IMG/VR virus record: IMGVR_UViG_3300003690_003363
Coordinates: 1-39,975 of that record
Source: a virus
DNA: 39,975 nt
Reading direction: 5' to 3' (one strand)
The position numbers were made by a program, and so were the translations under genes. This document shows positions 7,402 to 36,358 of this stretch, one piece after another. Position 1 is the stretch's first letter. The number at the start of each line of letters is the position of its first letter. Under the pieces are notes generated by a model, which had not been told where the DNA came from, did not search any database, and worked only from the letters and a program-made list of their open reading frames with translations.

Positions 7402-9028
7402 CGTCTGCTACTCTAAACTTGAAGGCCTTATCTTGCTCGGTCCACGTAAGCAACTCTGGATCATAGAAAGCGAACTTAAGCGCATATTCGTATCCTCCTT
7501 CAAGCATGCTCAGGTCTAAGTCAAAATAATTTCCAGACTTATCAAAAGATAAGCCGCTATAGTTGTTGCTACTTGTTCCGTGTGGGATTGCCTCTAGCGC
7601 GTCTAAGGTTCGAAAAACACGATAGGAGGCACTAACTATTGATGTAGACGGCACAGTCGTATTAGCCTTTGTATATACGGTGGGATTCCAATTTTTATTT
7701 CGAACAAACAGTTTAAAACGAGCAGTCTCTTTTGGTGTATACCTGTTCTTTAAATTTGTTATGTTGATAAAATATCTGGGAGTGCGAACATGGCTAAGGA
7801 ACGAATTTGCTGACCCTGTTGTGATCGGTATTATGGAACCCGTGGCGAACTCTGTGGCTTCTGTGTCGCGAGTGACTCCGCCCGGTTGTTCGGTCGAACC
7901 ACTCCACCACACATCATAAAGCGTTTTAATGGGGTCGGTTGAGGCTGTAAGACCTAATGAGGCGGAATACACGCCGGTTTCTACATAACCGCCGGTGATT
8001 GCATATTTGTTATTGTACAGTGTAAGTTTGGAGCCTGAAGGCGCGATATTGCCAGAAGAACCTGAATATAAGCTCACCATAATAGAGCCGGTCGTGCCAA
8101 TAGCAGGAATGTTTCTCAGGCGACCTCGCACATAGTTGTATAGATATAGTGTGTTTAGGCTGTCTTCTGCAAGACCGAGAGAGCTGCTATAATAAAAACC
8201 ACCTCTATCGTCTCTCTTAGTTGAGTCCCAACGAGCCTCAATCATAGGTCGTCTATAATAATATTGAGTCGTTCTTGAGAAAAATCTCTTGATATAATAA
8301 GATGCTTCGACACCACCAGTATTAGGTAGGATGCCTCCGGTTTGTATTGAGGAGTCGTAATACGTCTCGTAAGAAGACGATAGCATTACCCCAACGCCAT
8401 AATTGCCTATGTCTCCAGCAATCCAATGCTCTACGAGTCCAGTAATATCAATTTCTAAGTCTTCTAAACCAGTAGAAAAGTCTTGCCTATACATTGGTGG
8501 TTTGCCGGCAGGCGAGCTACCTGTTGGGTACGACCAGTGACTAGAAGCGGTCAAATAATCTCCACCATAATCAGTCCAAGCGGCCCTCCCCGAAGCAGAC
8601 ATCCAGTTAGAACCAGTAAAGCCTTGTGTTCTATCTTTATAGGTTATAACATCTAAACCAGAACCTTCCTGCCAAGATCGCGATACCGCATGTACAGATA
8701 ATGTATAACTTTCAGGGACTGGTTCGGTATGCTGAGCATTAAACATTCTTAAATAAAAATTTACGCTCCCAGAAGCTGGAACACTACCTGCTGACCGGTC
8801 TGAAGAAATTTTGGTAACTGGAAACTTAATTATGGCGCGGGACAGTTCCTGAGAACCAAGGGTAGTGTCGGTCTTCCGCGGATTACGACCCCATATAGAA
8901 AAAATTTGCATGACGTCGGACGCGCCCATGTTTGAGCCCGTTGCCCGGGTCGTCGAGGATCCCAAACTCGGGGCAAAAGTGTTTGTAATAGTGTTGTCAG
9001 CACTGCCGGTATATCTCTTTAAACCCAT
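7391..9028 (-). CDS. Fibre/adhesin-like virion protein (DNRLRE-like N-terminal region)
   Basis: 545 aa. The N-terminal half is Ser/Thr/Gly-rich beta sequence. It contains a region (about residues 60-230) resembling DNRLRE/CBM-like beta-sandwich domains: an 'IIKFPVTKI' strand, then 'YLRMFNAQ', 'YTLSVHAVSRSW' and a following Trp/Gly-rich loop, ending in 'DLEIDITGLVEHWIAG'. The latter is a typical closing strand plus helix of these domains. The C-terminal third is another beta-rich segment ending with 'EYALKFAFYDPE'. No catalytic motif is evident. The start overlaps the gp6 stop by one base, and the stop overlaps the giant LamG ORF, so the three are probably translationally coupled. The likely role is a baseplate-attached tail protein or fibre connector, inferred from context; the domain match is by eye only. 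Confidence 0.6.
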   Translation of the reverse strand: MGLKRYTGSADNTITNTFAPSLGSSTTRATGSNMGASDVMQIFSIWGRNPRKTDTTLGSQELSRAIIKFPVTKISSDRSAGSVPASGSVNFYLRMFNAQHTEPVPESYTLSVHAVSRSWQEGSGLDVITYKDRTQGFTGSNWMSASGRAAWTDYGGDYLTASSHWSYPTGSSPAGKPPMYRQDFSTGLEDLEIDITGLVEHWIAGDIGNYGVGVMLSSSYETYYDSSIQTGGILPNTGGVEASYYIKRFFSRTTQYYYRRPMIEARWDSTKRDDRGGFYYSSSLGLAEDSLNTLYLYNYVRGRLRNIPAIGTTGSIMVSLYSGSSGNIAPSGSKLTLYNNKYAITGGYVETGVYSASLGLTASTDPIKTLYDVWWSGSTEQPGGVTRDTEATEFATGSIIPITTGSANSFLSHVRTPRYFINITNLKNRYTPKETARFKLFVRNKNWNPTVYTKANTTVPSTSIVSASYRVFRTLDALEAIPHGTSSNNYSGLSFDKSGNYFDLDLSMLEGGYEYALKFAFYDPELLTWTEQDKAFKFRVADDEY

Positions 9029-10824
9029 TACCTAACCTTCCCTATAATGTCTACCTCTGGATATTTTAACTCTAAGATTGCATTGTTTGGAACAACTATA
9101 TATGATCCGTCAGCAGACAAATTGTCGTTAATGTCAATTGCTGCGGATGAGTAATTCCCTGACTGTTTGCTGACAACTTTAACCCTGGTAACGTCTAAGA
9201 CGCTGTCGACCTCTTTTAATACTTCATAAATTTGACTAATATATAGTGGCTCTCCAATAAAGAACGGTTGTATGAAATGCTCTTTTAGCGCCTCAATACA
9301 GTCATCTAATGCTGTATATTTTTCTGACGCCATTTTTGGTTTTATAATAAATTCAATACCAAAATTAAGAACGTATGGGTCCAATATGTCAATAGTATCA
9401 TTGATCATTCTATAATTGTTTATCCAAGTTTTTAAATTGTTTTTAATTGTTATGTTCGCTGCGATCAGTTTTCCATTGGCATTCTCCGAAAGCACATACA
9501 TATTTAAATTTCTTTTTTGAGAATCAGCATCTCTTTGTACCGATACGCGCTTAATAGCGCCAAATTTAGAATGCATTCTATATGCCAAGCTTTCATAATC
9601 AGCTTGTGTTACTGCCCTGTTCTGTGTTGGAAATGTATCAAAAATTCTTTGTTTTATTTCGCCAGTAGACGGGTAAGTAACCGATCCCACAATTGGCTCT
9701 TCATTGGTAACTTCCAAGGACTCTATTATTGCATTAACACTTAAGCTGCTCAAGTCTTGTCGGTTCACAAACTCGAAGTTACTAGCGCCAACGGCGTCCA
9801 GGGCCCCTACTGACAAATTTGAATTTGTAGGATTCGTTGTTCTAAAAGTGATTGTTAACGTGGTATTTGTGGGCACGATTCCAAATGACTCATTCTGTGA
9901 TAATCTTGTTGGATCAAAAGATAGATCGGTTACATAGTTCTTACCAAAAACGTTGATCGCCACACTTTGTGGGTTGGCCACGATATCAGAATCGCCAGCT
10001 TTTCCACTTCCAAACTGCAGGGTAACCTGATCTAAGGAATGTTCGACAATATACTTTCTAGATACCAAAAATGGTTTTATAAGCGATGGGACGTTATCGT
10101 CTTTAAAACTAGGATTTGTTATCTCCTTAAAAATCATATCTTGGGCCAAGTAATCAACTTCGAAGTACTTGTTTCCTTCCGAATCAAATACAGAGATAAT
10201 CTCTGAAACATTTGGTGTGGAGAGAGTTGTTCTATAAAATCTCTCGAAGGAGCCAACTTTTATTGTTTCTTGAGAAAAAATACCAGATACAACATTTCCA
10301 TAGGCCTTCACAGCATAATGTGTGGGGGCGCCAGTAGAAGAATCAACCCTTGCGGCAACAGTTAAGTTTCTAGGGTCAGCAAAATCAATATTTTCTGTCA
10401 GAATAAACTGTGTTCCAGTTTGAGAACTGAAAGAAGTACCTCTTTTTAAAACCGGCAAATAATCTGCATTGGCGCCTAAGCCGGCGTTAGAAGAAGGGAC
10501 TAGAATAAATAAAGCAACCTGACCATAGGTTGATTCGCGACCGGTGAATTTATAACCCAGTGCACGGCCATGGCGAACCACATTAGTAAACTGAAATGCC
10601 GTATCTAAAAACGATTCATTAACATTATAATCCAGATAGAAAGAAAGCTGATCACCAATGTACGCAACGGCATCAAGCATTAACGCGCCAAAAGATGCCT
10701 CGCTAAAGTCTTGGAAAGTATCCGGATAAAATCTCTCTGCTATGTCCGTTAAGTCATCGCGAATTGTTTCGAAATCACGATGAGTATAATCAATCGGCAT
10801 TATTTTTTTCTGTTGTTTTGGCAT
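9028..10824 (-). CDS. gp6: Baseplate wedge protein, gp6/J-like
   Basis: 598 aa. The N-terminus has the hallmark pattern of T4 gp6 / baseplate J proteins: 'PIDYTHRDFETIRDDL', then 'RFYPDTFQDFSEASFGAL' and 'YIGDQLSFYLDYNVNESFL' (about residues 10-75), followed by a long beta-rich middle. In the C-terminal third comes the conserved 'NRAVTQADYESLAYRM' segment (about residues 395-415), typical of the family. gp6-type proteins form the inner wedge ring that dimerises around the hub and drives sheath contraction. The gene follows gp25 with a 16-nt gap and an AAGGA ribosome-binding site. The length is close to T4 gp6. The assignment as a contractile-tail wedge protein is secure at family level. Confidence 0.9.
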   Translation of the reverse strand: MPKQQKKIMPIDYTHRDFETIRDDLTDIAERFYPDTFQDFSEASFGALMLDAVAYIGDQLSFYLDYNVNESFLDTAFQFTNVVRHGRALGYKFTGRESTYGQVALFILVPSSNAGLGANADYLPVLKRGTSFSSQTGTQFILTENIDFADPRNLTVAARVDSSTGAPTHYAVKAYGNVVSGIFSQETIKVGSFERFYRTTLSTPNVSEIISVFDSEGNKYFEVDYLAQDMIFKEITNPSFKDDNVPSLIKPFLVSRKYIVEHSLDQVTLQFGSGKAGDSDIVANPQSVAINVFGKNYVTDLSFDPTRLSQNESFGIVPTNTTLTITFRTTNPTNSNLSVGALDAVGASNFEFVNRQDLSSLSVNAIIESLEVTNEEPIVGSVTYPSTGEIKQRIFDTFPTQNRAVTQADYESLAYRMHSKFGAIKRVSVQRDADSQKRNLNMYVLSENANGKLIAANITIKNNLKTWINNYRMINDTIDILDPYVLNFGIEFIIKPKMASEKYTALDDCIEALKEHFIQPFFIGEPLYISQIYEVLKEVDSVLDVTRVKVVSKQSGNYSSAAIDINDNLSADGSYIVVPNNAILELKYPEVDIIGKVR

Positions 10825-10840
10825 TCAAAAATTCCTTACT

Positions 10841-11209
10841 TTAAATAGTGAACTCTAACAAATCTCCAACATTTAAGGTTGGAATGGAGTACTCGATACT
10901 TACACTAAGTTTGTTAATGTCAATATCTTCAACAATAAAATTAATTTCTTTAATTTTTATTACAGGCAAATATACAGAGGCCTGTTCGATTATTTTAGTT
11001 TCAATATCATCAAACGTGCTCTGCGTAAAGGAGGAAAAAAGATAGGAGTAAAGGCCGACACCAAAGCTTGGTTCCATAACTCTTTCTCCGCGATTGGTCA
11101 ATAAAAGCATTTTGAAGTTCTGCTTTATAAGTGTCCGAAAATCTTTAATCATGGCAAAGCCATCGCCACTATCCCTGGTAATCGGTAATTTAAGCGCCAA
11201 TGAAGCCAT
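10841..11209 (-). CDS. gp25: Baseplate wedge protein, gp25/GPW family
   Basis: 122 aa, usual for the GPW/gp25 family. The diagnostic block 'LLLTNRGERVMEPSFGVGL' lies at about residues 35-53, followed by 'LFSSFTQSTFDDIETKI', as in T4 gp25 and P2 gpW. These proteins form the part of the wedge that starts sheath polymerisation on the baseplate. A good Shine-Dalgarno (GAGGA, 7 nt before ATG) supports the start at 11209. It sits immediately upstream of gp6, the same order as in T4-type baseplate operons. This gene and gp6 are the main evidence that the phage has a contractile tail. Confidence 0.92.
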   Translation of the reverse strand: MASLALKLPITRDSGDGFAMIKDFRTLIKQNFKMLLLTNRGERVMEPSFGVGLYSYLFSSFTQSTFDDIETKIIEQASVYLPVIKIKEINFIVEDIDINKLSVSIEYSIPTLNVGDLLEFTI

Positions 11210-11791: not shown

Positions 11792-14700
11792 TATTGATAT
11801 GATCTTCTTTAAGTTTTGCTAGCAAACAGTATAAAATTTTGCTATTTGGTTCAATACCGGTGAATGCGCTGACTGGAATATCTAAAGCATCTATTTCTAT
11901 GTTTACTATTTCTTTCTCCGTGCCAGCGAATACCATTCCAAATGATAAGCCGTATCTCACACCTAGCTCTCCCGTAATACCAACCTCAACACCTTCATCA
12001 TTTATTGACAATTGCATCGTCCCAGGAAAATGTTGTGAGATAACGCCGCTACCCCGTGCTTTCACGTCTGTAACGCCGTCGGCCATATTTTTGCGGGTGC
12101 TATTAACCTTAATATATTTATACATATAAAATGGCCGGGCGGTGGTCGTAGAGGCCCGTTCGCCGTCAGGTATATCTCCAAGTGGATCAAACGTGGTTTC
12201 ATAAATCTTCTTGCCGGTTTCTTCATCTGGCGAGCCCGTATCTATCACTTTTTCAACGCCGATGATCACCTTATTTGCGAATGGCCTTAACAACTCCTGT
12301 GCTTCATCAGAGTGGTATTCTCCGACCGTATACGTTAAACTTCCATCTTGTTCATCTATACTAGCATGATAATATCCAGCATAAATGCTTCCATCTGACA
12401 ATGAAAATTCATTACCATCTGTGTAAAATGGACCTGGCCACTCCCAACCAAGGCCGGCAGGATCTGGCTCCTCTTCTGTTGGGAGGCCGACGACACTCTC
12501 AACTATGGTGCCGTCTAAATTAAGTTCATTGCTCCCCAGGGCTGTAAACTCCGTCATATAGTAATAATCTAAATCATATACATCGGGAGACATATCAAAA
12601 CTTTCGATATTCTTTATAAACTTGTCCCCCATGAACTCCAACTGCTCGTTAACAAGTTCTTTAAGAACAAGTTTTGCATCTTCCTGAGTTCTGTACACTG
12701 CTTCCAAATTTCTGCTTTCTCTATAGCTCTTTAGAGTCTCAAATATTCCAGCTTCTCCACCGTATTTGGCAGCCACCAATTCATCAATAAAAGGATAATC
12801 ATATGATTGTTGATAGTTATTTAGCCTATCTAGCGCATCACTCACATGTTTCGGAACATCCTCTTCATTAATATCGCCACTGTCGACTCGGCGCCCATAT
12901 GTTTGCACTGCCTGCTCCAAAAACGCATACCAAAACTCATTATCTGAGAACGGACTCCAAAGACTGGTCGAATCTCTAAAGTCTTGTTCCATGGTTTCTA
13001 TAATATAAGAAGAATATATGTTGCTATAATTATCCGGGAACTTGGGAGCGAATTTGGTAAATATTGGCAAGCCCTTCATAAAATGTACGCTAGCATACAC
13101 TCTAATGGCCGCTATGATAATTCCCTCAATTGTTGCCTTAGAAAGTCTGTGTAAAATTCTATTGTACGGTACTTCAACAACACAATCTGGATCTCCTCTG
13201 AGGCGGTCATCCTCTGGTATATTTGGATATATTTCGTTTATCTTTGCGGATATCTCGTTAAAGTCTACGGCGTCGGTTTGCGATGGATCGCAGGGACTCA
13301 GTTCTGGAAACATAACTTCAACCAGGCCGGCCCAGCCAACTGATTTTCGAGGCTTAACATATATCGGCGGCTGCATGTAAGAGCCCCCATATTGAGTTGG
13401 GTTAAGGAAGAAGACCCTTGTCTTTTCGGGATGTGTGCCGGCTTGTTCGTTTACATATTGATTTCTGCTTACGCCCATTATTCCGTCATCTTCACTAACT
13501 GGGCGATCCGGGAGTATCCGCTCTCCTTCTGAATCATAATCTTTGACCGTTTTTTCAGAGTATAGGTCACCGGTCTTCGAGTCCAGATAATCAAAGTCAG
13601 TTATGTCCAGATCATCGAACGTCATTCCATATTCCCAAGCTTTTGTATTGTTGCCTATTTCTTTGGCCACCTTCACGAATTGTTCTTTCATAAAGGAGTC
13701 GTACTTTTCCTTAATTTGTGATTTGCTTAGTGTGGTTCCAAATAGATCATATAGCATATTAATTTGCGGTGCAAACGGGGTTTGTTTCACAAAGCTTTGA
13801 CTTAAGTTTGGAAAATGTTCCATTGATAGATATTCGCCCTTATCTGGGTCCGGGTCATACAAAGAATCTAAACCATTATCAACCGCCATGAACTCATATT
13901 TTCTTGAACGGATTTCCTTGACTTCTAAGGCGCTATCGAAGCTCACACTCATGCCTTTAGCCTCTTTGGGATTTGGTTGATGATATGCATCAAAGGGTGG
14001 GCGGTTTGGACGGGCTGCCTCATTAAAGAACTCGGTAAGATAAATTCTTGTGTTATCATCGGGCCTATTAACATATGAGCCTTTTACAGGGCCTTCCATC
14101 ATATCGGAAATGTATGCATTTACTCTAAACTTATAGCTCCAGGCGGACTTTCCTCCATTTAAGCCCAGGCGATGCCCCTTCGCATTATCTTTGAATTCAA
14201 GTGCTATGTCTGGATCATCCTTCCGTGGCAACTTTATGAACCATAGGTTTTCTTCACTCCAATCTGGTGCCGTCTTTACGTTGTACCCCATGTCAGGCAC
14301 GTCTGTTAGTTCTACATCAGAAGTGGTAAAGAGGCTATCGAATCCAAGACTGGCAAAGCTGACTGGCCACTTCTTTGTGCGGCGCGGAATGTTTGTGCTA
14401 CTAAATTCCATGCTGTCTCTAAGATCTTGAGAAATATCTCCCAAAAGCAATCTATCATCTATAGGCTGCTGCGCGGCGGATTTATATTGATACATCAGCC
14501 ACTCAGCAACATATTGGGGGTATGCACCGCGTTGCGACCGGAGGCTTGCTACATTTGAGCCCATCGCGTCTTCGATGTCATCCTTATTGGTCGAGTCCAA
14601 GCTGGTGTCTGTGTTCAAATAAAAGTCTACATAGTTTGAGTCGCTGGCCACATCCACTTGATGTCTTGTGAACGGATTACCAACAGTATCAGACAAAATC

Positions 14701-17700
14701 ATGTTTAAGAAGCCCCACGAAGAGTCGACGCCGCCGGCGAGGAAGCTTAGGAAACCTCCAGAACCCAACATATCTCGTGCATAGGCCTGCTGCATTTTTT
14801 TCATTTCGCCTTCTACCATGGTGGCTGCAGTGGCCGCAATGTCTTCTGGCTCATATGGCATAAGACCATTATTACAGCCAGGATCTGATATCATTGGTGG
14901 CATCTGATCCATGAGTGTCGGGCCAATTCCTCTTTGCATTAAACTGGTAACATCATCTAAATCTTCTAGCATTGTTCCACGCCAGTTATCAAACATTTGA
15001 TCACATTGTTCAGGGGTGGCTCGGCCTTCTAACAATGTACACCTTAGATCCTTAAAAGCGTCCAGTTGGTCAGGGGTTGCACAAAGAGTTGGGTTTGCCG
15101 GCATTTCATCGGCTTGAGCACCAAGCGTCTCAAGAGCTATTGCCATTTCGTCTCTCATTTGTACAGGGGCCAAGAAGCCAATATTTTTGAAAAAGCTACC
15201 AATAGCGCGCTGGTTCGGGAGTGCATCGCGGTACTCTGGGAAGCCGTTTTCAACAATTTGATCTGCAATTTGCAGGAATGTTTCTGAAGGGTTCCCCAAA
15301 ACTGCAGACGTCATCTCGGCCTGGGTGGCGGCCGATGATAGATCTTCCGCAAACGTAAGCGCCCTGTCAGGGTTTGCAAGTGCTTGGCCGCCAACACCCA
15401 AGTCAGCGATTAATTGTACAACCGTATTTTCTACTTCTTGAGTGGGGGTATCTGGTCCACAAATTGAGTCTCTAATAATGTTTGTTAAAGTGTTGGTGCC
15501 GGCTATTAATGAAGGCAGTGAAGCAGCGATTTGTCCAGTGATCTCTAATGCCTTACAGATAGCTTTACCAACAAGTTCACACACCTTGACTATAAGTAAT
15601 ATCAGATATTTAAATATCAGTTCATTAAGTTTCTTTTTGAGATAATCAAATACTGCTTTCCAGGGGTCCAGTAGAAGCGGCCACCACCACGTAGGCCAAT
15701 CAAGTCTAGGTATTACAATTTCAGCGTTGTTCCTGCAAAATGGAAGCGTAATGCTTTTTATAAAATCATTAATACCGGGATTAAATAATGGAGGTCTGGG
15801 GCAGTCGATTGATGTGATAAAAAATGCTATAATCTGGGCGCCTGGAAAATCATTTAGTTTATCCAACAATGCTAGATAGTTATCTGAATATTCTTCTAGT
15901 AGTGCAAGGATGTAAGCTTGAAAAATTTTGCTTGAATCTAGATTTTCTTTTGCCGCTTTTGCAGGGTCTAATTTTTGTGCAAGGGTTCTTCTGGTCTCGG
16001 CGCCTCCACGACTTTCTTGTTGCATTTCCATTGTTGATGGCTGGCCGGGCGGGACCGGGACTTCGTTGCCCAACCCATTATTGTATGTGCGCTGTCTTTC
16101 AACCAATTCTTGATCTTCCCATGGCCTAGCAATTGAGAATCTGCCAAAAAACCTTTCCCCTCTCATCGATTCTGATTTGGCGCCGGCATATACACCCTCG
16201 CGCTGGGTGGTGGACTGTCCAACTCCACCCGCGGTTCCGGCCGCGGCGCCGGGGCTGTACTCAACGCCACTTGCTTCGCCGGTATCCGGGCCCTCCAGTT
16301 CTGGATCTTGAACATCTGTGTATGGATTCACGAATCCTTCTAGCGTTTTTCCTTCTTCCAGGTTTTTTCTAACCATCGCATCAAGTTTTGCTTGTTTTTC
16401 GGGAGGCAAACCAACAAATAATTTTCCGAAATTTTCATATGTCATTGAAGAAAGCGCATTTTTTAACATTATAGAAAGAGCATCTTCTAGAGAGATCCCC
16501 TTAGTTAAACATTCGATTGCCGACATTAGAAGATCGAATAGCCCGCAAACCTTAATTCTTTCAAAATTAAATCGCCAGATATCGTCCATCGCTTCTCCTA
16601 TGGTCGCGTTATCCCGGGTGGACAACATTCGCAAACAAAAATGAGCAAATACCTGATCACGGGGATCGATCTTCTTGTGGGCTTTCATTATTGCAGCGCC
16701 AACCATGGTATTTTTTTTGTCAGACTTTTTTTCTTGTGGTTTCTTTGGGGGGGCTGGCTTCTTGGGGCCGGCCTGTTGGCCGCCGCCTGGGCCTGTTGGA
16801 CCTTCACCCGGGGGGGCAGCGCCCTCGGCTTGGCCCTGCTCGTCTTCATCTTCTTTAACTTTTTCTTTCTCATGCTGACAAAGCCTAGAATGAAATTCAT
16901 ACGCGATGCCGTCGCCAATACTAAACATATCATCTAAGATGTCTTGTCCAAATTGCTTTGCTTCATCAGCCAAAGCATTTGCAATACATGTAGTAACGCC
17001 TTGTGCTCCTTCTTCCGGCATTATTTGGCCGGCGCCCGGGCCGACTACATGAATCTTAGGATACGTATATTTTAGAGCCATGTCAAGCCATGGCTGTTCT
17101 GTCCGGGCAGATAGTTCGCTGGCTATTTCCTCCATTTTCATAAAGTATGCAACAGCTGTTGGATCTCGCCAGCCCGGTTGAGTAGACAGTGAATCAAGCC
17201 TATCCTTTCCAAACTCCACTGGCAATTCATTGCACCTATCAGTCCAAACTCTTATTTTTTTAAGTTTGTATTCACCTGTTACTGTGAATTCTATATGTTC
17301 GACATTTTGATTGAAGAAACCCCAGGTACCCGTATTTGGTATGTTCATGCCCTGATCATTAAGCCAACTATCTAGCTCTAATTGTAAAACGCTTAATTGG
17401 CCGTGCATATCGAATGGGCCGGCATCGCCGTAATCATCTAGATTGAATATTTTTCCTGTTTTAGAAAATATCAAATTAGAACTTTCCAACATTCTAAAAA
17501 CTCTTAGATATCTACTCCACAAATGAAGGCCTTTTCGTACTGTTATCTGACTTAACACCAGATCTCCAGTAGCGTATTTAGCAGTTGTATCTCCTTGTTC
17601 TGCCTCTTCAGAAGTATCTACGGGTGGTGCATCTGGTAAATCTTCAAGTACGCTGTATTCAACTGAATATAATAACTGTACATATGAGCCCGGGTTTGGC

Positions 17701-18176
17701 GCCAAATAATATTCTGATTTTTCCATGGCACTTTTGATTTTTTGGATCGATTCCGGTGATGTGTCTTTTCCTTTCCAATTCAAAAGCGCACGGATGGCGC
17801 CTTTTCTTGGCTCTCCTTTACGATGGGAAACAGTTTGTAGCCAATCTGAATTTAACGATCCGCCAACATTGTTATCCCATTCATCGGCATAGTGTTGCCA
17901 TATCGCGTCTAATTTTTCGGCGGCCTCTCGCTTTGTTATATCATCGTAGTAACCAAAATGTTTTTCTTTAGTTAAATATGAAATTTGATACACACACAGT
18001 TTTTCATTCAAAAAAGGTTGAGACTGGTTTCTGGTCTTCCAGTCTGGAACAATGGCATTTGGATTCGGAGAACACGGAAGACAAGTGTTTGCTCTCGGTA
18101 TTGCATCGTCTGGACACGCATCTGGTAGCATATCTCCGTTTTTGTCTTGCCATTTTAAAAATATTGATTCAGCCAT
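11697..18176 (-). CDS. 2159-aa virion structural protein, unknown fold
   Basis: Very large ORF with SD-like GGGA 9 nt before the ATG at 18176. Visible parts are: an N-terminal mixed domain with Cys-Pro-rich start; a low-complexity acidic then Pro/Gly/Lys-rich linker at about residues 439-491; a Trp-rich element (about 829-834) followed by a strongly hydrophobic helical stretch (about 849-880); and a long alpha/beta C-terminal half. Near residue 2005 there is a repeat-like 'DGSIYAGYYHASID' element. No catalytic signature is evident. It lies between the spike-like paralogue block and gp25/gp6, so a baseplate or tail-tube-associated role is likely. Giant proteins of unknown fold are common in tail modules of large aquatic myoviruses. 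The last ~30 residues are Arg/His-rich and look like an off-frame read of the next gene. Confidence 0.7.
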   Translation of the reverse strand: MAESIFLKWQDKNGDMLPDACPDDAIPRANTCLPCSPNPNAIVPDWKTRNQSQPFLNEKLCVYQISYLTKEKHFGYYDDITKREAAEKLDAIWQHYADEWDNNVGGSLNSDWLQTVSHRKGEPRKGAIRALLNWKGKDTSPESIQKIKSAMEKSEYYLAPNPGSYVQLLYSVEYSVLEDLPDAPPVDTSEEAEQGDTTAKYATGDLVLSQITVRKGLHLWSRYLRVFRMLESSNLIFSKTGKIFNLDDYGDAGPFDMHGQLSVLQLELDSWLNDQGMNIPNTGTWGFFNQNVEHIEFTVTGEYKLKKIRVWTDRCNELPVEFGKDRLDSLSTQPGWRDPTAVAYFMKMEEIASELSARTEQPWLDMALKYTYPKIHVVGPGAGQIMPEEGAQGVTTCIANALADEAKQFGQDILDDMFSIGDGIAYEFHSRLCQHEKEKVKEDEDEQGQAEGAAPPGEGPTGPGGGQQAGPKKPAPPKKPQEKKSDKKNTMVGAAIMKAHKKIDPRDQVFAHFCLRMLSTRDNATIGEAMDDIWRFNFERIKVCGLFDLLMSAIECLTKGISLEDALSIMLKNALSSMTYENFGKLFVGLPPEKQAKLDAMVRKNLEEGKTLEGFVNPYTDVQDPELEGPDTGEASGVEYSPGAAAGTAGGVGQSTTQREGVYAGAKSESMRGERFFGRFSIARPWEDQELVERQRTYNNGLGNEVPVPPGQPSTMEMQQESRGGAETRRTLAQKLDPAKAAKENLDSSKIFQAYILALLEEYSDNYLALLDKLNDFPGAQIIAFFITSIDCPRPPLFNPGINDFIKSITLPFCRNNAEIVIPRLDWPTWWWPLLLDPWKAVFDYLKKKLNELIFKYLILLIVKVCELVGKAICKALEITGQIAASLPSLIAGTNTLTNIIRDSICGPDTPTQEVENTVVQLIADLGVGGQALANPDRALTFAEDLSSAATQAEMTSAVLGNPSETFLQIADQIVENGFPEYRDALPNQRAIGSFFKNIGFLAPVQMRDEMAIALETLGAQADEMPANPTLCATPDQLDAFKDLRCTLLEGRATPEQCDQMFDNWRGTMLEDLDDVTSLMQRGIGPTLMDQMPPMISDPGCNNGLMPYEPEDIAATAATMVEGEMKKMQQAYARDMLGSGGFLSFLAGGVDSSWGFLNMILSDTVGNPFTRHQVDVASDSNYVDFYLNTDTSLDSTNKDDIEDAMGSNVASLRSQRGAYPQYVAEWLMYQYKSAAQQPIDDRLLLGDISQDLRDSMEFSSTNIPRRTKKWPVSFASLGFDSLFTTSDVELTDVPDMGYNVKTAPDWSEENLWFIKLPRKDDPDIALEFKDNAKGHRLGLNGGKSAWSYKFRVNAYISDMMEGPVKGSYVNRPDDNTRIYLTEFFNEAARPNRPPFDAYHQPNPKEAKGMSVSFDSALEVKEIRSRKYEFMAVDNGLDSLYDPDPDKGEYLSMEHFPNLSQSFVKQTPFAPQINMLYDLFGTTLSKSQIKEKYDSFMKEQFVKVAKEIGNNTKAWEYGMTFDDLDITDFDYLDSKTGDLYSEKTVKDYDSEGERILPDRPVSEDDGIMGVSRNQYVNEQAGTHPEKTRVFFLNPTQYGGSYMQPPIYVKPRKSVGWAGLVEVMFPELSPCDPSQTDAVDFNEISAKINEIYPNIPEDDRLRGDPDCVVEVPYNRILHRLSKATIEGIIIAAIRVYASVHFMKGLPIFTKFAPKFPDNYSNIYSSYIIETMEQDFRDSTSLWSPFSDNEFWYAFLEQAVQTYGRRVDSGDINEEDVPKHVSDALDRLNNYQQSYDYPFIDELVAAKYGGEAGIFETLKSYRESRNLEAVYRTQEDAKLVLKELVNEQLEFMGDKFIKNIESFDMSPDVYDLDYYYMTEFTALGSNELNLDGTIVESVVGLPTEEEPDPAGLGWEWPGPFYTDGNEFSLSDGSIYAGYYHASIDEQDGSLTYTVGEYHSDEAQELLRPFANKVIIGVEKVIDTGSPDEETGKKIYETTFDPLGDIPDGERASTTTARPFYMYKYIKVNSTRKNMADGVTDVKARGSGVISQHFPGTMQLSINDEGVEVGITGELGVRYGLSFGMVFAGTEKEIVNIEIDALDIPVSAFTGIEPNSKILYCLLAKLKEDHINNGHLSRHGLYAIYRRSNSGRRRHVRIHVPQD

Positions 18177-18187
18177 TTGTTGTTTCC

Positions 18188-19309
18188 CTAATTTGTTTTA
18201 ACATTTCTGCTCCATATGCATTTGGCCCCGGCTGGGCTTAAATAATTTATTCGCCATGTGTTTAAATTTCCTCGAAGATGATACATAGATATGTTTCCTC
18301 GTAAAATAGTTCCTAGCGCGTTCTTGGCGGTAATGGCGCTGAGCGTTAGAGGGTGTATCAGTCCTATGGCGATGGCCAACTCAATATGAGCTTGGGCTAC
18401 AGCGTTACAAGCACCCAAAGTGCTGCCTACAATATCAGCTAATTCTTGAAAAGCATCTCTTGTATTATAACCCATCGCAATGCCCTGTAATCCCGGGATC
18501 GACTCTTTGCGCCCATCCATACGCATCAGCTTTCGATCTGTAATTTTATTACCTGCAATAAATTCGATTGCAGGTGCAGGCTGAACTATCTTTCCGCCGT
18601 GAGAGGTTGGTTCACCGGCGGTCCAGCCTTCGACACCCTGGGCCGGCCCCGAGACTATTTTAACTGATTCTCGTCCTATAATTCTTACGGCGTCGGCTTT
18701 TATGCCCACTGCTGAGCGCGCAATCGATTGTGGGGCAACGCCGCGGACGAGCCCAAAGTAACGATCAATATCGGCTAATTGAGAAATATAAACGCGTGCT
18801 GCGTCTGCTGCAAAATCATTATTAATCCATGACGGAACTTCTGGTCCCTTTCCCTCTCTGGCGGAAGCTAAGCGTCCGACAACAAGGTCAATAGAAGCTG
18901 CCTTGTCGGCGCCCCAGGCGCCGTAACCAGACCGAACCGACTCTGGCCTATCAGTTCCCAAAACAATATACGCACCCATGCTGGTGATAATTTTTTCATT
19001 TTGGGCTTTTAGATAAACAATGCCACCACCCGAATCAGCAATTTTATCGGATTTAAGCATTGAATGAAAAAGACCGCTCTTCGGTGGAAGCTTTGACGCT
19101 CGGGTGAGGTTTGGGTCTAGGGCGCGGCCCGGGCCTTCACGCGTAACGCCGGCGGCGGCGCGTTGTGCAGCAATCTCTTCCGGCGTATCTTTATCTGAGG
19201 TCGCTTCGATGACAGACTGCTCTTGCTGATCTGCCGCGGCGCGGTGTTTCGCAATTTCTTCATCAGAGGGGCCGTGAAGCGGCAGCTTTTTATCATTTCC
19301 TGTTCCCAT
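18188..19309 (-). CDS. Unknown structural protein, 373 aa
   Basis: Starts at ATG 19309 with a strong AGGAG ribosome-binding site. The first 65 residues are charged and Ala-rich and carry a short repeat, EEIAKHRAAA (residues 17-26) and EEIAAQRAAA (44-53), probably helical. The body contains 'GIVYLKAQNEKIITSMGAYIVLG' (split pattern of beta strands), 'SVRSGYGAWGADKAASIDLVVG' and 'GIKADAVRIIGRESVKIVSG', a beta-helix-like run. The C-terminal third is helical with small residues. I do not recognise a named family. Similar strand-rich sequences occur in phage baseplate/spike-associated proteins. It follows the three spike-like paralogues after a 72-bp AT-rich gap and precedes the 2159-aa protein, so a virion role is inferred from context. 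Confidence 0.55.
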   Translation of the reverse strand: MGTGNDKKLPLHGPSDEEIAKHRAAADQQEQSVIEATSDKDTPEEIAAQRAAAGVTREGPGRALDPNLTRASKLPPKSGLFHSMLKSDKIADSGGGIVYLKAQNEKIITSMGAYIVLGTDRPESVRSGYGAWGADKAASIDLVVGRLASAREGKGPEVPSWINNDFAADAARVYISQLADIDRYFGLVRGVAPQSIARSAVGIKADAVRIIGRESVKIVSGPAQGVEGWTAGEPTSHGGKIVQPAPAIEFIAGNKITDRKLMRMDGRKESIPGLQGIAMGYNTRDAFQELADIVGSTLGACNAVAQAHIELAIAIGLIHPLTLSAITAKNALGTILRGNISMYHLRGNLNTWRINYLSPAGAKCIWSRNVKTN

Positions 19310-19381: not shown

Positions 19382-20824
19382 TTATGCACTGTAGAAGTCC
19401 TTGTCTTGCACGTGCCACCACCACTTCTTTCCACCTTCGAGGTCTTTGCCGGATGCTAGGTCTTTTGATTCTACTTCGTTCCAGTCATCACCTACCCAAT
19501 ACCAATTGATTCCCCGATCTGCTTCAGTATAGGTGGGCGGCGTGCCAGTCTGCGTGGTTGTTTGTGCGATGCCGGCCCCAGTGATGCCTATAACTTCTAC
19601 ATTATCTGCAAAATCTACTGGCCAACTTTTTGACGATGCTTTAGACGTGCCATGAGTTGCTGTCTTTGTATAATTTTTATAAAAATGATTATAACATTTG
19701 TTGAATAGGCCCTTTTTCTTGGTTCTGTCTGCCGCGGTTCCTGCTGCCCAGTGTATATAATCTTTGTCAGCAGAGGCTTTAAAAGTGTTGGTTTTCGAAC
19801 TCCAACCATAGGGTGTTAGTAACACGTCATCCATATCAGCAATTGGCTTAAGTTTAGCATTTATACAATCACTACCGTCTGGCATCTGATGTTTGCAAGG
19901 CTGTTTCTTGGCAGCATCTAAAAAAAACTTAATATCAGCTGCGAATCCATATTGGTGATTTGAATAACACGGAGCTTCTGGCTTGAGGGCGCCGGTGCAG
20001 GTCGGGAACACATATAATACCCATTGGTGTTTTGGGCTTCGACGTATAGAATTTATTTGTGCTGTCAGGCCGGCAGCCTTTGCTCTCTCAATAAATCTCT
20101 GAACCCGTGGTTGAACAGATGCGTCTAACGCACCTAAAGTTTTTGTAATTCTAAAATATGATGGTATATCGTGAACTTCGAATGTGCCGTCGGCGCGCTT
20201 GATTTTACATTGGCGCGGTTTAGTCATCTGGCCACTAGTGTTGGATATTATATTTGATGCTACTGCTGCTGCTTGGGCGCGCACGGGAGGGCCGCCCCAC
20301 CCGCCAGCCAGACTAACAAGAGAAAAACATTCCGTGCCGGCAGTGGCGCCGGGCTCTTCATTGCTAGTAAGACTTAAAAACCTTCCGTATTCAAGATTAT
20401 ACGTCTGATCTGATTGTTCTAATTCAATAAGTACTATATCTCCTCGCGAAACATTGGCAATTTCAATGACATTTGTACTTATAAAGGTGGTGTGCATAGC
20501 AATAATTCTATATGCCTCATTATCATTTGCTAAAAACGATGGATCACAGGGATCTGGCAAAAAAGAGTGTGGTGAATTTTCTCCCATAATGCGCGCTTTA
20601 AAAGCATATCGTGTTCCGCCATCATTACCGGTGGCGCCGCCGTCGATGGCCATGGCTTCATTAGAAGACAATGGAAACATATCAGTGAGGGCGCGCGCAG
20701 CAAATACAGTCTTGGCACCATAAGAATTACTTTGCATAGCCTTACGAAAAGCTTTACCAAATAGATCTATAGATTCTATATCATCCGTAAATGTTGTCCA
20801 GTCATATAATTCTCTATTTGACAT
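19382..20824 (-). CDS. Spike-like paralogue 1 with M15 peptidase domain
   Basis: 480 aa. Residues 1-180 form the module shared with the next two genes: ELYDWTTFTDD start, RALTDMFPLSSNEAMA, FKARIMGENSPHSFLPDPC and NLEYGRF, plausibly an OB-type baseplate/spike fold. Residues about 205-375 match M15 peptidases (D-Ala-D-Ala carboxypeptidase/VanY/L-Ala-D-Glu type): S288-N-H290...G293...D297 fits SxHxxGxAxD, and 'YIHWA' supplies H358. These would be the three zinc ligands of a peptidoglycan peptide-cleaving enzyme. The C-terminal ~85 residues are a separate Trp-rich tail. A virion-borne murein hydrolase that opens the cell wall at DNA entry is the natural reading. Zinc-ligand assignment is by motif; the virion location is inferred. 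Confidence 0.8.
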   Translation of the reverse strand: MSNRELYDWTTFTDDIESIDLFGKAFRKAMQSNSYGAKTVFAARALTDMFPLSSNEAMAIDGGATGNDGGTRYAFKARIMGENSPHSFLPDPCDPSFLANDNEAYRIIAMHTTFISTNVIEIANVSRGDIVLIELEQSDQTYNLEYGRFLSLTSNEEPGATAGTECFSLVSLAGGWGGPPVRAQAAAVASNIISNTSGQMTKPRQCKIKRADGTFEVHDIPSYFRITKTLGALDASVQPRVQRFIERAKAAGLTAQINSIRRSPKHQWVLYVFPTCTGALKPEAPCYSNHQYGFAADIKFFLDAAKKQPCKHQMPDGSDCINAKLKPIADMDDVLLTPYGWSSKTNTFKASADKDYIHWAAGTAADRTKKKGLFNKCYNHFYKNYTKTATHGTSKASSKSWPVDFADNVEVIGITGAGIAQTTTQTGTPPTYTEADRGINWYWVGDDWNEVESKDLASGKDLEGGKKWWWHVQDKDFYSA

Positions 20825-20846: not shown

Positions 20847-22040
20847 TTAACAAATATTACCTAGTAAAGTGTAATAATCGCTCGGATACGTGCCCAGGGC
20901 ATCGCCTTTTTCTTTACCGGCAGATCTCATTCTCTGTGCGCGAGTCAAACCTATCAAGTGAGAGGCAGCTATCATACCCGCCACGTCTTTCGGGTTGCTG
21001 AGATCGATTAAATTTCTTTTCTTAAGCCACAAGAATCTTGCGTTTGTGTAAGATTTCATAGCCTTATCTTGCACCCCGCCTTTGTTGGCTAACCATTCTG
21101 CTTTTGAGCCGGCACCTCGGCCGGAATTCCAATTCGAGTTATCGTCTACAAAGGCCCCTACTTTTGATTTACAACTAGATGATTGCGATTTACACGCACC
21201 AAGAGAAGTAATATCTTTTATAACACCATAGTCTTTTAACGCCTCAACACCAAACTGCCATTTTCCCATATAATGCCACTTGTTTGTCTCAGAGTATTTA
21301 CCGCCAGACTCTCTATCTCCCAGCACCTTCTTGTATTTTTCCCACAAAACAGTTCCAAAATAGGCCTCAACATCTTTAGCTGATGCATCTGCAGGTTGAC
21401 AGGTGGCCACTAGTGCGTGTTTTATGCTGTTAAAATTGATGGTTCTCTCTGAGCCATCCCCCGTAGGGACATGAGTAGTCGCAAACCCAGTGCCGGTCGC
21501 TGGAGGGCCTCCCCATTTTCCCATAAGGCCTATAAGACTGGCACATGCAGCTTCTTGTGTTGGTGATGGCTCTTCATGAGCGCTAATAGTTATAAATCTG
21601 CCATATTCTAAATTATATGAATGGTCGCTTCTATCTACTTCTACAACAACAATGTCTCCACGTGTCACATTTTCGCCGGAATCTGCAGAGAGACTTATAA
21701 AGGTGGTGTGCATGGCAATAATTCTATATGTTTCGCTGGTGTTTGCTAGAAATCCAGGCTCACAGGGGTTTGGGAGAAATGAGTGGGGAGAGTCATCTCC
21801 TATTATTCTTCCTTTGAACGCCCAGCGCGTGCTACCATCATTACCGGTGGCACCCCCATCGAGAGCCATGACTTCATTAGAGGACAGTGGAAACATATCA
21901 GTGAGTGCGCGTGCTTTGAAGCGTGTTTTTCCTGCATATACATCGCCGGCTAAACTTTTTCGCAAAGAGAACCCAAAAACATCTATGGATTCTATTGCGT
22001 CAGTGAACATTGACCAATCGAATATTTCTCTGTTCGACAT
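20847..22040 (-). CDS. Spike-like paralogue 2 with lytic transglycosylase-like domain
   Basis: 397 aa. Residues 1-180 repeat the shared N-terminal module (EIFDWSMFTDA start, FKGRIIGDDSPHSFLPNPC, NLEYGRF). From about residue 200 the sequence becomes a lysozyme-like fold: 'GDRESGGKYSETNKWHYMGKWQFG' (split motif, residues 241-264) has the catalytic Glu (E244) followed by the Ser-Gly-Gly and YxGxxQFG pattern of soluble lytic transglycosylases. The predicted action is cleavage of peptidoglycan glycan strands. Cys282 and Cys290 are close together in a loop. It has an AAGGAG site before the ATG at 22040 and is 26 nt from the preceding gene. Family identity is by motif, so a goose-type lysozyme relative is not excluded. 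Confidence 0.75.
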   Translation of the reverse strand: MSNREIFDWSMFTDAIESIDVFGFSLRKSLAGDVYAGKTRFKARALTDMFPLSSNEVMALDGGATGNDGSTRWAFKGRIIGDDSPHSFLPNPCEPGFLANTSETYRIIAMHTTFISLSADSGENVTRGDIVVVEVDRSDHSYNLEYGRFITISAHEEPSPTQEAACASLIGLMGKWGGPPATGTGFATTHVPTGDGSERTINFNSIKHALVATCQPADASAKDVEAYFGTVLWEKYKKVLGDRESGGKYSETNKWHYMGKWQFGVEALKDYGVIKDITSLGACKSQSSSCKSKVGAFVDDNSNWNSGRGAGSKAEWLANKGGVQDKAMKSYTNARFLWLKKRNLIDLSNPKDVAGMIAASHLIGLTRAQRMRSAGKEKGDALGTYPSDYYTLLGNIC

Positions 22041-22066: not shown

Positions 22067-23368
22067 TTATGGTTTATACATCCAATTGTATAATCTCCAG
22101 TTAAGGCCACCGGTTTTTGCGTGGGCCTGGGCCTCTGCGTCAGGGTTTCCGTGATAATCTGTTGTCATTTTCCAGGCGCCTCCAAATTTCTTTGTATATC
22201 TAAATAGGTCTCCATGATCGAGAGATGAGTCCTGGGAGAGTTTCCACTTTACACCTATTGCTCCGGTACGATCAACGCCGTGTGTACAGTGAAAATATGT
22301 GTTGCCGCCTCTTAAAGAATTTTCAATTCGTCGCCATTCCGCTGCATTTGGTACTTTGACTTTATTCATAGTTACTTGGTACCATTCCATGTCCAAACTT
22401 TCTGCCCAAAGCTGCTCGCAGGGCTTCTTACCACCCTGGCCGGCACAACCAATACTATCATCTTTAATACCACATTTGCCTCTTCCTCCTTTTGATCTCA
22501 CAGCTGCGTCTGCCGCCAAACTAATAATTGTTTTGAGTCCAAATGTGTCACGCATGACTTGCAATTGCGCTTTGCTGGTTATTGTGGCGCCGCGGTAATT
22601 ACCGTTTCCGGGCGTAATCTCGGCAAAACGATCTGGTGGTGCTGCAATTCCGGTCTTGGCGAACTGTGCTTCTCCTTGGCAATTTTCATTTTCGCAAAAG
22701 CCTCGCCGGCCGTCCGGGCACGGAGGTGTTGCTGTGCCGTCCACAAAAGGCGCCAAAGTTTGTATTTTGCCGTCCCAAGTAGAAGTAGAAGCTCCGTCGC
22801 CCAACTGGCTGCCAACTGTGAACGGCTTGTGCGTTATTGCGCCGAAAAGACTTACTAAAGCTGCACATTCGCTCGCGGATCCAGGGGACGGATCTTCTAC
22901 ACTAATTAGTTCTTCAAAGGTGCCATATTCTAAATTATAGGACTGGTCGGCTCTTTCTAATTTAACCAGAACAACATCCCCTCTTGTAACTGGCGTTGCT
23001 TTTGATGTTGATGGGCTTAAAAAAGTAGTGTGCAACGAAATAACTCTATATGTCTGCTGCAGATCTGCAGCCCAGGTTGGATCACACGGGTTGGGAAGAA
23101 ATGAATGTGGTGAATTCTCTCCCATAATACGTGCCTTAAATGCCATACGCGGCTCTGAGCCACCGGCGGCATTGGTTGCACCTCCATCAATTGCCATGGC
23201 CTCATTAGAAGACAATTCATATGAATCTGTAATAGCCCTAGCTTTAAAAACAGTAGGATCACTATACCTCTCGTCGGCCAGACCCCATCTAATTAGGTTC
23301 CCAACTAAACTTAAAGATTCTTCATCATCTGTAAACGTTGTCCAATCGTATAATTCATTATTGGCCAC
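22067..23368 (-). CDS. Spike-like paralogue 3 with PTP/dual-specificity phosphatase-like domain
   Basis: 433 aa. The start is GTG at 23368, 9 nt after a GGAG, overlapping the previous stop by 11 nt; the resulting MANNELYDWTTFTDD start aligns with its two paralogues. Residues 1-180 are the shared module. After a Cys-rich linker (about 217-230) comes a domain with 'YRGATITSKAQL', 'FGLKTIISLAAD' and H360-C361-THGVD-R367-TG, which fits the HCx5R(S/T) P-loop of cysteine-based phosphatases, plus the helix that normally follows it. The known chemistry is phosphate-ester hydrolysis through a cysteinyl-phosphate. Its substrate here is unknown: a host phosphoprotein, an inositol phosphate or a phosphorylated cell-surface polymer are options. 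The motif is seen; the activity and virion location are inferred. Confidence 0.7.
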   Translation of the reverse strand: MANNELYDWTTFTDDEESLSLVGNLIRWGLADERYSDPTVFKARAITDSYELSSNEAMAIDGGATNAAGGSEPRMAFKARIMGENSPHSFLPNPCDPTWAADLQQTYRVISLHTTFLSPSTSKATPVTRGDVVLVKLERADQSYNLEYGTFEELISVEDPSPGSASECAALVSLFGAITHKPFTVGSQLGDGASTSTWDGKIQTLAPFVDGTATPPCPDGRRGFCENENCQGEAQFAKTGIAAPPDRFAEITPGNGNYRGATITSKAQLQVMRDTFGLKTIISLAADAAVRSKGGRGKCGIKDDSIGCAGQGGKKPCEQLWAESLDMEWYQVTMNKVKVPNAAEWRRIENSLRGGNTYFHCTHGVDRTGAIGVKWKLSQDSSLDHGDLFRYTKKFGGAWKMTTDYHGNPDAEAQAHAKTGGLNWRLYNWMYKP

Positions 23369-23666
23369 CTTCGGGTTCTCCAGATACTTGAATCATATCA
23401 AAAAGTTGATTCTTGTCTTCGTCAGAAAGATCGATGGATACGTTTTGATTTTTTTGTTGTAGCGCTATCAGTTTAACTAGCTGCTCATTTGATCGCTGCA
23501 TTGTTTCAACGTGCTTGGCTGCGACTGGGCTTAGACTTCTGTTTTGCTCAGCATCCATTGCAATTTGATTTGCAATTTCGTTCAAAAATTCTTGGGCTGA
23601 CCTTCTGTCGTTTCGGATATTCTCTAAAGCTTCGTCGATTAAGCCGCTTAAATTATTCTTCTTCAT
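23358..23666 (-). CDS. Small helical protein downstream of the sigma factor
   Basis: 102 aa starting at ATG 23666, which overlaps the sigma-like stop as ATGA and has GGAG 6 nt upstream; a longer start at 23684 is less likely. The sequence is almost wholly helical and charged, with 'LIDEALENIRNDRRSAQEFL' near the start, a possible coiled coil (about residues 45-80) and an acidic C-terminus. I do not recognise a family. Coupling to the sigma-like gene upstream and to the first spike-like paralogue downstream suggests a small regulator or a chaperone for the tail protein, but nothing in the sequence decides this. Confidence 0.6.
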   Translation of the reverse strand: MKKNNLSGLIDEALENIRNDRRSAQEFLNEIANQIAMDAEQNRSLSPVAAKHVETMQRSNEQLVKLIALQQKNQNVSIDLSDEDKNQLFDMIQVSGEPEGGQ

Positions 23667-24373
23667 AAAGCTCCGTTTTCCCAATTTTGTCTAAAGAATG
23701 AATATTTCTTTCTAAACTTCTTAAGAGAATTCACAATCTGTTTTGTATTCAGCCCTGTGATTTCTCTCAGGTATAGATAAATAGCTTTCTTATTAAAAAT
23801 CTCGATGTCCTCCTTTGATTCGAAAAGCACAATAATTGCTTTATATACTTTTAAATCGTTTTCTTTCATCTGGGATGTGTCCCATGATTTTATTTCTTTA
23901 TAAAACCGATCCCAAAACTCTTCTTCTTCTCGGTTGGATAGATATGATTCGTTTGTCGACAGATATTCTTCTTCGTATGATTTAGATATGTTGTCGTAAT
24001 CAATTTCGCGACGGTTTCTCTTTTGTTGTTTTTTAACTTTATGAATAAACCAGTTCTTTGTAATCACCGAAAAATATGAAAACGCCTTCGAACCTTTTGA
24101 TGGGTCGAACTTGTCCAAAATGGTCATCAACCATATCTTACATTCGTCTCGCAAATAATCAATATTTGGTAAATTTGTAAACTTGTAAGTAAAGACGATT
24201 TTATCAACCATTTCATTAAACGCTGGTTGAATCCATTTAATATACAATTCTGTTCGTTCACGCTTACAGCTTGTGTTAGAATAACGAATTATTGCATTTT
24301 CATGGTCTTTCGTAAAGTAATGATTTTTTTTACGCCTCTTTACTGGCGTTGGTTTCCGTTTCAATATTGTCAA
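23663..24373 (-). CDS. gp55: RNA polymerase sigma factor, T4 gp55-like (late)
   Basis: 236 aa. Residues about 70-120 carry a sigma region-2-like block: 'LRDECKIWLMTILDKFDPSKG' (split) then 'SYFSVITKNWFIHKVKKQQKR', the core RNAP-binding and promoter-melting helices typical of gp55-type sigma factors. The C-terminal half is acidic, then helical with a basic end ('QIVNSLKKFRKKYSFFRQNW'). In T4, gp55 directs host RNA polymerase to late promoters. No ATG is available near the start: TTG 24373 or TTG 24364 are the candidates, with an AGAAGAAG stretch placed better for the second. The 5' end overlaps the preceding gene by 44 nt (35 nt with the second start). Family assignment is strong by pattern; a late-gene role is by analogy. 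Confidence 0.75.
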   Translation of the reverse strand: MTILKRKPTPVKRRKKNHYFTKDHENAIIRYSNTSCKRERTELYIKWIQPAFNEMVDKIVFTYKFTNLPNIDYLRDECKIWLMTILDKFDPSKGSKAFSYFSVITKNWFIHKVKKQQKRNRREIDYDNISKSYEEEYLSTNESYLSNREEEEFWDRFYKEIKSWDTSQMKENDLKVYKAIIVLFESKEDIEIFNKKAIYLYLREITGLNTKQIVNSLKKFRKKYSFFRQNWENGAL

Positions 24374-33049: not shown

Positions 33050-33731
33050 AGATTGCCTCTATTATTTTAAAATCGTCTATTGTGTCTACTTCATGGGCAA
33101 AGGGGGTGATAAATGCTAGCATCTTAGTGCCGTGCAGCGCTGTATCTTGCATAAAATGTTTTGGTCTAATGATATCTATGCAACCATTTGGCTGATATGT
33201 TTTTGGCAGCCTTTGTCGTTGCCAATTATAATAATCTCCCTTGTACTCATCATTAAACAGTCCCTCCCAGTATTCACCAGTCTTCTTAAAAGACTTGTAC
33301 GCTGTCTCGGGTGCCTCATGTGCAGAACGCAAACCTGTACATTCTGGATTATCTGTGAAATATTCAACTGCCTGATCTATTATGCGTGGCTGAACCATGG
33401 GTGTGGTCGCTCTTAAGTGTATTATATCATCATGATCACTTAAGTATTCCACAGCATGTCGCATAACATCGATATCTAATGCATTATCGGTCGCATATTT
33501 TGTTGGTCTTTGAATTATTGTTGCTCCATATTTTTTTGCTGTTTCGGCTATTTCTTGATCGTCTGTTGAAACATATATTTCTGATACATATTTCGACTCT
33601 TGAGCCGCTCGAATAGGGTACGCGATCAAGGGTAAGCCGTTTAACACACGTATATTTTTTCTTGGCACACCCTTACTCCCGCCGCGAGCAGGAATAATTA
33701 CTTTAAATCTCTTATCATCTGAACTGCTCAT
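33042..33731 (-). CDS. neuA: CMP-nonulosonate (sialic-acid-type) synthetase
   Basis: 229 aa, usual for the family. 'IPARGGSKGVPRKN' (13-26) is the nucleotide-binding signature of CMP-NeuAc/CMP-legionaminate/CMP-Kdo-type cytidylyltransferases, followed by 'YVSTDDQEIAETAKKYGA' and 'LRATTPMVQPRII'. It activates a nonulosonic acid with CTP to its CMP-sugar. It lies 8 nt after neuB, so the pair makes and activates one sugar. Whether the sugar is neuraminate, legionaminate or another is not decided by the motif. Confidence 0.88.
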   Translation of the reverse strand: MSSSDDKRFKVIIPARGGSKGVPRKNIRVLNGLPLIAYPIRAAQESKYVSEIYVSTDDQEIAETAKKYGATIIQRPTKYATDNALDIDVMRHAVEYLSDHDDIIHLRATTPMVQPRIIDQAVEYFTDNPECTGLRSAHEAPETAYKSFKKTGEYWEGLFNDEYKGDYYNWQRQRLPKTYQPNGCIDIIRPKHFMQDTALHGTKMLAFITPFAHEVDTIDDFKIIEAIYG

Positions 33732-33739
33732 AATTTTTA

Positions 33740-34573: not shown

Positions 34574-34581
34574 TTTATCTC

Positions 34582-35403: not shown

Positions 35404-35406
35404 AAC

Positions 35407-36357: not shown

Positions 36358-36358
36358 T

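Follow-up and report, generated by a model that had tools for sequence, protein, structure and literature searches.

The window, meaning the whole stretch of viral DNA analysed here, comprised 39,975 nucleotides of the IMG/VR record IMGVR_UViG_3300003690_003363. The gene under study was the first of three neighbouring paralogues, referred to below as slots 1 to 3 of a putative tail-hub set (Table 1). The gene order was as follows: a gp55-like sigma factor, a small gene, the three hub genes, a 373-aa protein, a very large protein, gp25 and gp6. The placement of the sigma factor also agreed with isolates that had the same gene order, and the small gene had the same position as those at L029 2907-3257 and L030 3541-3936 (handles of this kind denote related loci). 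The gene for the 373-aa protein was the conserved next gene in all related contigs, and the gp6-like protein matched phages Mel-JY01 and immuto with 98% coverage. Two overlapping reading frames of the window (11231-11791, 186 aa, and 11697-18176, 2159 aa) corresponded to a single 2347-aa reading frame in L058 (10155-17198); the frame break near their junction was either real or an assembly error. The window also contained nonulosonic (sialic-type) acid genes at 33042-36381, namely NeuB and a CMP-sugar cytidylyltransferase beside sugar dehydratase genes, and a Radical SAM / SPASM domain protein within the phage sugar cluster (39091-39933). NeuB, a cytidylyltransferase and a GT29 sialyltransferase (E 1.1e-33) were likewise phage-borne in L024 (1032-4401).

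Table 1. Features of the putative hub locus and its surroundings in the window.
Feature	Position	Strand	Remark
Slot 1 hub protein, 433 aa, OB-like N-module and PTP domain	22067..23368	-	GTG start
N-module, residues 1-180, common to the two downstream genes, predicted OB fold	22829..23368	-	
Cys-phosphatase domain (PTP/DSP fold), residues ~226-433	22070..22693	-	
P-loop signature HCTHGVDRTG, residues 360-369 (C361, D366, R367)	22262..22291	-	
Slot 2 hub paralogue, 397 aa, N-module and lysozyme-like domain	20847..22040	-	phrog_27932, E 4.5e-13
Slot 3 hub paralogue, 480 aa, N-module and VanY-like (M15) carboxypeptidase domain	19382..20824	-	VanY, E 0.014
Probable separate spike protein, 373 aa, without OB domain	18188..19309	-	synteny and sequence pattern
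gp55-like late sigma factor, bounds the hub cluster upstream	23663..24373	-	phrog_234, E 1.7e-4
Small gene between sigma factor and hub genes	23358..23684	-	position only
gp25-like baseplate wedge protein	10841..11209	-	Pfam GPW_gp25, E 1.5e-11
gp6-like baseplate wedge protein	9028..10824	-	phrog_219, E 4.4e-17

According to the original prediction, the slot 1 gene fused a cysteine-phosphatase-like domain to a spike- or baseplate-like module that was shared with sister genes for cell-wall hydrolases. This description was supported by fold, conservation and synteny. The reading frame ran on the minus strand, which that prediction had left unstated. The common part extended over residues about 1-185, was 50% and 57% identical to its counterparts in slots 2 and 3, respectively, and was joined to the phosphatase domain by a linker. 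Both sisters did carry wall hydrolase domains, lysozyme-like in slot 2 and VanY-like in slot 3, and the VanY match was stronger in the slot 3 orthologue of L008 (E 2.5e-5). When predicted alone, the N-module gave a five-stranded model with a mean pLDDT of 64 (strands at residues 40-45, 73-79, 112-116, 130-138 and 141-154). Its best structural matches were OB-fold proteins (IF1/eIF1A, RNase II), and the P1 baseplate chain 9vzk_q was also among the matches (Z 5.9). Since the best Z was only 6.3, the OB assignment was suggestive and not a proof. Among predicted viral proteins, the top match of the N-module was an M23B peptidase from an uncultured marine virus (E 1.7e-5).

The location beside baseplate genes and the sigma factor gp55 was that of a gp5-type hub. 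Because of the OB prediction and the site between the gp55-like sigma factor and the probable spike, beside gp25 and gp6, the N-module was most likely a gp5-type hub module. T4 gp5 consists of a tail hub OB domain, a lysozyme and a beta-helix spike. Similar to it, the slot 1 protein would place an OB-type module before an envelope-degrading enzyme, at a hub position with the gp25 and gp6 baseplate genes nearby. In contrast to gp5, no beta-helix spike was present in the same chain, which ended after the enzyme; the spike was apparently encoded by a separate gene, and three paralogues carried three unrelated enzymes, one of them a phosphatase. Moreover, no sequence similarity was detectable between gp5 and the hub proteins described here. 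The 373-aa protein was the probable spike that had split off from the hub, as judged from synteny and sequence pattern, although profile comparison gave no proof.

The phosphatase domain of the window protein scored below the gathering cut-offs of the Pfam PTP families (14.7 bits versus 22.2 for Y_phosphatase3, PF13350), and therefore sequence alone was insufficient to assign this protein. Nevertheless, Y_phosphatase3 produced weak matches to all 9 members of the PTP-relative alignment (best E 1.7e-5), and the relatives were matched by the DSPc, PTP-NADK, Tc-R-P and Y_phosphatase3 models with E down to about 1e-5. The structure prediction that had been proposed as a check of the fold yielded a PTP fold. 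Namely, an AlphaFold2 model built with 23 related sequences had pLDDT of about 77-93 across most of the PTP core, and its top Foldseek matches were all PTP-superfamily structures (E 1.3e-5). A VIA-align comparison with DUSP23/VHZ gave Z 14.5 and an rmsd of 2.3 A over 137 residues, followed by PFA-DSP1, Siw14 and PTPMT1 as close structural matches. The motif HC361THGVDR367TG was present with C361 and R367 numbered correctly, and a chance HCx5R match was ruled out by fold and conservation. When the alignment profile was compared with solved structures, it found PTPs, and the best of them was TpbA, the periplasmic dual-specificity phosphatase of P. aeruginosa (PMC4409338). The P-loop of TpbA (HCKHGNNR) resembled that of the hub protein (HCTHGVDR), and the fold was the same. 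However, TpbA is a stand-alone secreted enzyme with the loop general acid Asp105 (PMC4409338), whereas the hub PTP had the P-loop residue Asp366 instead. Taken at this level, we consider it very probable that the PTP domain is real and catalytically intact, although activity itself has not been shown.

Profiles of the N-module and of the PTP domain were required to reach relatives of the window protein, since IMG/VR scans with the full-length and C-terminal parts as single sequences found nothing. By tblastn, neither the PTP protein, nor the N-module, nor two PTP relatives had a relative among 50,697 phage records, and the N-module had no match among the PHROG profiles. The signature HC[AT]HG[AV]DRTG was kept in 13 of 13 distinct relatives with C, D and R invariant. 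Thus, the alignment left intact the two residues, C361 and R367, whose loss among homologues would have refuted the phosphatase assignment. This count was partly biased since one search for relatives used a pattern containing HC. On the other hand, the motif played no part in the recovery of L004, L005, L008, L036 and L050, which came up by way of the N-module or the adjacent spike gene. They nevertheless retained C, D and R, and their conservation was unbiased for this reason.

The canonical WPD/IPD general-acid loop had no conserved Asp (the window protein reads VTMNKVKVPN there). However, D366, at position 6 of the P-loop, was invariant, as in the P-loops of MptpB and the myotubularins. The Asp at this position is the general acid in myotubularins and was reported likewise for MptpB (PMC3091653). 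Given this precedent and the invariance of Asp366, a phospho-enzyme mechanism through Cys361, with Asp366 as the likely general acid, can be inferred by analogy, without activity data. Therefore, the missing loop Asp made a canonical DSP less likely but not a working phosphatase. The likeness to MptpB-like ALP phosphatases and myotubularins consisted of the P-loop Asp (HCxxGxDR) and the lack of a canonical WPD-loop Asp; whole-domain similarity to the hub PTP was weak, and phosphoinositide substrates should not be assumed for a marine bacterium.

To place the gene among its relatives, 80 loci were collected with the 373-aa spike-like protein as the anchor. Once near-duplicates had been removed, the interval from the sigma factor to the spike gene contained one N-module gene in 38, two in 5 and three in 5 of the related marine contigs. 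No extra N-module copies were present elsewhere in ten whole records that were checked, including single-copy records of 195 and 203 kb. A tree of 71 N-modules required five changes to the multi-copy state, at least 4 of them forced by well-supported branches. On this tree, multi-copy hub sets arose about 4-5 times. Slots 1, 2 and 3 each grouped across four triple-copy phages (two label changes, the minimum), and the slots are accordingly taken, from their grouping, to be orthologous across triple-copy phages. In each of the sets the N-modules were 49-91% identical, and the C-terminal parts lacked similarity in 18 of 18 pairs. VanY occupied slot 3 in the window and L008 and slot 1 in L007; as far as the comparison of genes can tell, enzymes move between slots.

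Several individual sets deserve mention. L100 (6243-8951) had two hub genes with 91% identical N-modules and unrelated enzymes, the second being an M23 peptidase. As read from this comparison, the gene was duplicated recently and an enzyme was then swapped. In L082 (148-816), a 222-aa paralogue had the OB-like module without an enzyme domain and was followed by a VanY-type paralogue. In L059 (2302-4110), a 602-aa hub paralogue adjoined the PTP hub gene; its long C-terminal part had no significant known domain and, by eye, a hydrophobic stretch. The single-copy hub of L016 (2451-3899) had a C-terminal domain that matched uncharacterised proteins of crAss-like/Bacteroides phages at about 25-33% identity. 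The slot 1 gene had a GTG start in all triple-copy sets (window, L055, L057, L058, L013), and the slot 1 genes of these sets were preceded by a similar upstream stretch (GGAGAA...GAAG). It was possible that both features served to control the subunit ratio.

The phosphatase was the first gene of the set in the window, L004/L005, L008, L024, L036 and L050. L036 was the same contig as L059 and started at a contig edge, and thus an earlier gene could not be excluded there. A PTP domain was found in 5 of 10 multi-copy and in 0 of 38 single-copy contigs (Fisher p 1.5e-4). The contigs were not phylogenetically independent, and this p overstated the association because there were only few independent origins. 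Where a domain was recognised in single-copy hubs, it was a VanY/M15, amidase, M23, muramidase or SLT domain, that is, wall hydrolases only. In a tree of the PTP domains, the hub PTPs fell into two subfamilies. One joined the window and L008 to a Myxococcota protein (L028); the second placed L004/L005 and L024 among other phage proteins. Since the N-module of L004 grouped with that of the window while its PTP belonged to the other subfamily, the phosphatase had been swapped or gained more than once. On the N-module tree, its recruitment as the first gene took place independently in two or more multi-copy lineages. Such a distribution would be expected of an accessory enzyme that depends on an accompanying wall hydrolase. 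When cellular relatives were sought more widely in the phylum of L028, just four additional weak matches appeared, without a clue to the substrate. The N-terminal part of L028 looked FHA-like by eye, but it had no Pfam match and no claim is made.

In the textbook view, phage tail hubs are homotrimers with one wall-cutting enzyme, and T4 gp5 is such a homotrimer. If, as we infer, the OB modules form a trimer at the spike base in the manner of gp5, the three slot-specific paralogues would form a mixed trimer bearing three different enzymes; there were no data on its composition. Mixed trimers were supported by the slot-conserved paralogues and their different enzymes, by the enzyme-less paralogue of L082 and by the fact that the phosphatase never occurred without another hub gene. 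The other option was that each paralogue formed its own homotrimer, giving alternative hubs with one enzyme type per virion. Besides the gp5 precedent, it was favoured by the native VgrG1 and VgrG2 of one type VI secretion system, which form no heterotrimers (PMC4924876). However, such homotrimers would include virions with a phosphatase and no wall hydrolase, and yet the phosphatase was never found in a single-copy hub. They also left unexplained why slot identity was kept across four phages while the enzymes differed, and why an OB-only paralogue existed. Evolved VgrG spikes resemble the hub set in being gp5-like trimers with variable C-terminal effector domains and several paralogues per cell, whereas the set described here belongs to a phage virion and is tandem and slot-conserved. 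Mixing of VgrG paralogues has not been generally shown. Two-copy sets were compatible with separate homotrimers as well as with mixed trimers, but they fitted poorly to a strict 1:1:1 trimer. Together with the absence of VgrG1-VgrG2 mixing, they called for caution. Thus, separate homotrimers seemed unlikely but could not be set aside, and a mixed-trimer hub had about an even chance. The stricter proposal of an obligate hetero-trimer, with slot-specific OB subunits and three enzymes, in which the phosphatase strips envelope phosphate so that the spike and hydrolases can pass, remained tentative, and we would not rely on it.

In T4-type hubs, the periplasm is where the enzyme is delivered. By analogy, the phosphatase would enter the host envelope upon penetration along with the wall hydrolases and would remove phosphate there. 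This phosphate would most likely come from a lipid, LPS or polysaccharide of the envelope, or else from a phosphoprotein in the periplasm. We also considered that the phosphatase leaves the hub and acts on phosphoproteins or phospho-metabolites of the host cytoplasm. Capsid-targeting sequences (CTS) of T4 have been described (PMC3012670). CTS-like motifs ending in [LI]xE were found at the start of PTP relatives from the same family in the phage-like contigs L020 (7092-8522), L022 (7920-8534) and L023 (7146-8513), which would mean head packaging and injection; a second gene of L022 also started with MLKSFIQFINE. In addition, L018 matched the polymorphic-toxin DSP model Tc-R-P (E 4.5e-5). However, the tags were confined to relatives that were not hub proteins, and a search for them in the window and its close relatives found none. 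Moreover, the T4 hub enzyme acts in the periplasm, L019 and L028 had membrane-anchor-like segments by eye, and the nearest solved relative, TpbA, is periplasmic (PMC4409338). A cytoplasmic role was therefore quite unlikely, and an envelope or periplasmic target was somewhat favoured, without data on the substrate.

The three genes might also be a separate set of baseplate-attached decorations and not the hub itself. Such decorations would agree with the lack of any sequence match of the N-module to gp5 or a PHROG and with the hhalign comparisons to isolates, which were not significant either for the N-module against the hub genes or for the 373-aa protein against the spikes. On the other hand, in every bounded locus the genes were flanked by the sigma factor and the spike-like gene, the N-module was predicted to have an OB fold, recognised copies held wall hydrolases, and records of 195-203 kb had one copy each. 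Flavobacterium phage immuto and Microcystis phage Mel-JY01, which have related sigma and gp6 genes, showed the same order of gp55-like sigma factor, small gene, hub, gp25-like gene and gp6. At the hub place they had one gene that looked like OB plus spike. In contrast to the window, this single gene had no enzyme in the chain, and Mel-JY01 had a separate chitinase-like gene. Decorations were thus very unlikely, and it was highly probable, from position and architecture and without proteomics, that the slot 1 protein is a hub subunit in the virion. Finally, a phospho-ligand-binding adhesin, that is, a PTP without catalysis, had in its favour the absence of a conserved Asp in the canonical loop and the frequency of binding domains at tail tips, but it was barely tenable given the invariant nucleophile Cys, P-loop Asp and Arg, the enzymes in nearly all neighbouring slots, and the replacement of the loop Asp by the P-loop Asp in MptpB and myotubularins (PMC3091653).

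Overall, we considered the virus to be a T4-like marine myovirus with three paralogous tail-hub subunits, among them this protein with a phosphatase that acts on the envelope (probability roughly 0.6, in the absence of data on activity, virion or structure). Its role was best read as that of an accessory phosphatase directed at the envelope, carried together with peptidoglycan hydrolases on a hub that is probably a mixed trimer, for which there were no activity data. Our search of the literature, with partial coverage, revealed no tyrosine-phosphatase domain in any phage tail protein and no report of a phosphatase in a phage hub. The recurrent architecture is real as a variant of the gp5-type tail hub in which one of several enzymes is an intact phosphatase, although its activity was not shown. 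The hub gene was duplicated several times, the copies held different positions, the enzymes were swapped freely, and the phosphatase was one recurrent addition. The phosphatase and its two sisters with different wall-cutting enzymes suggest that the tail tip bears three kinds of enzyme rather than one enzyme in triplicate. If confirmed, such hubs would be a natural modular platform for multi-enzyme penetration, the building of hub asymmetry would become directly testable, and the phosphatase would point to a phosphorylated envelope barrier in marine bacteria.
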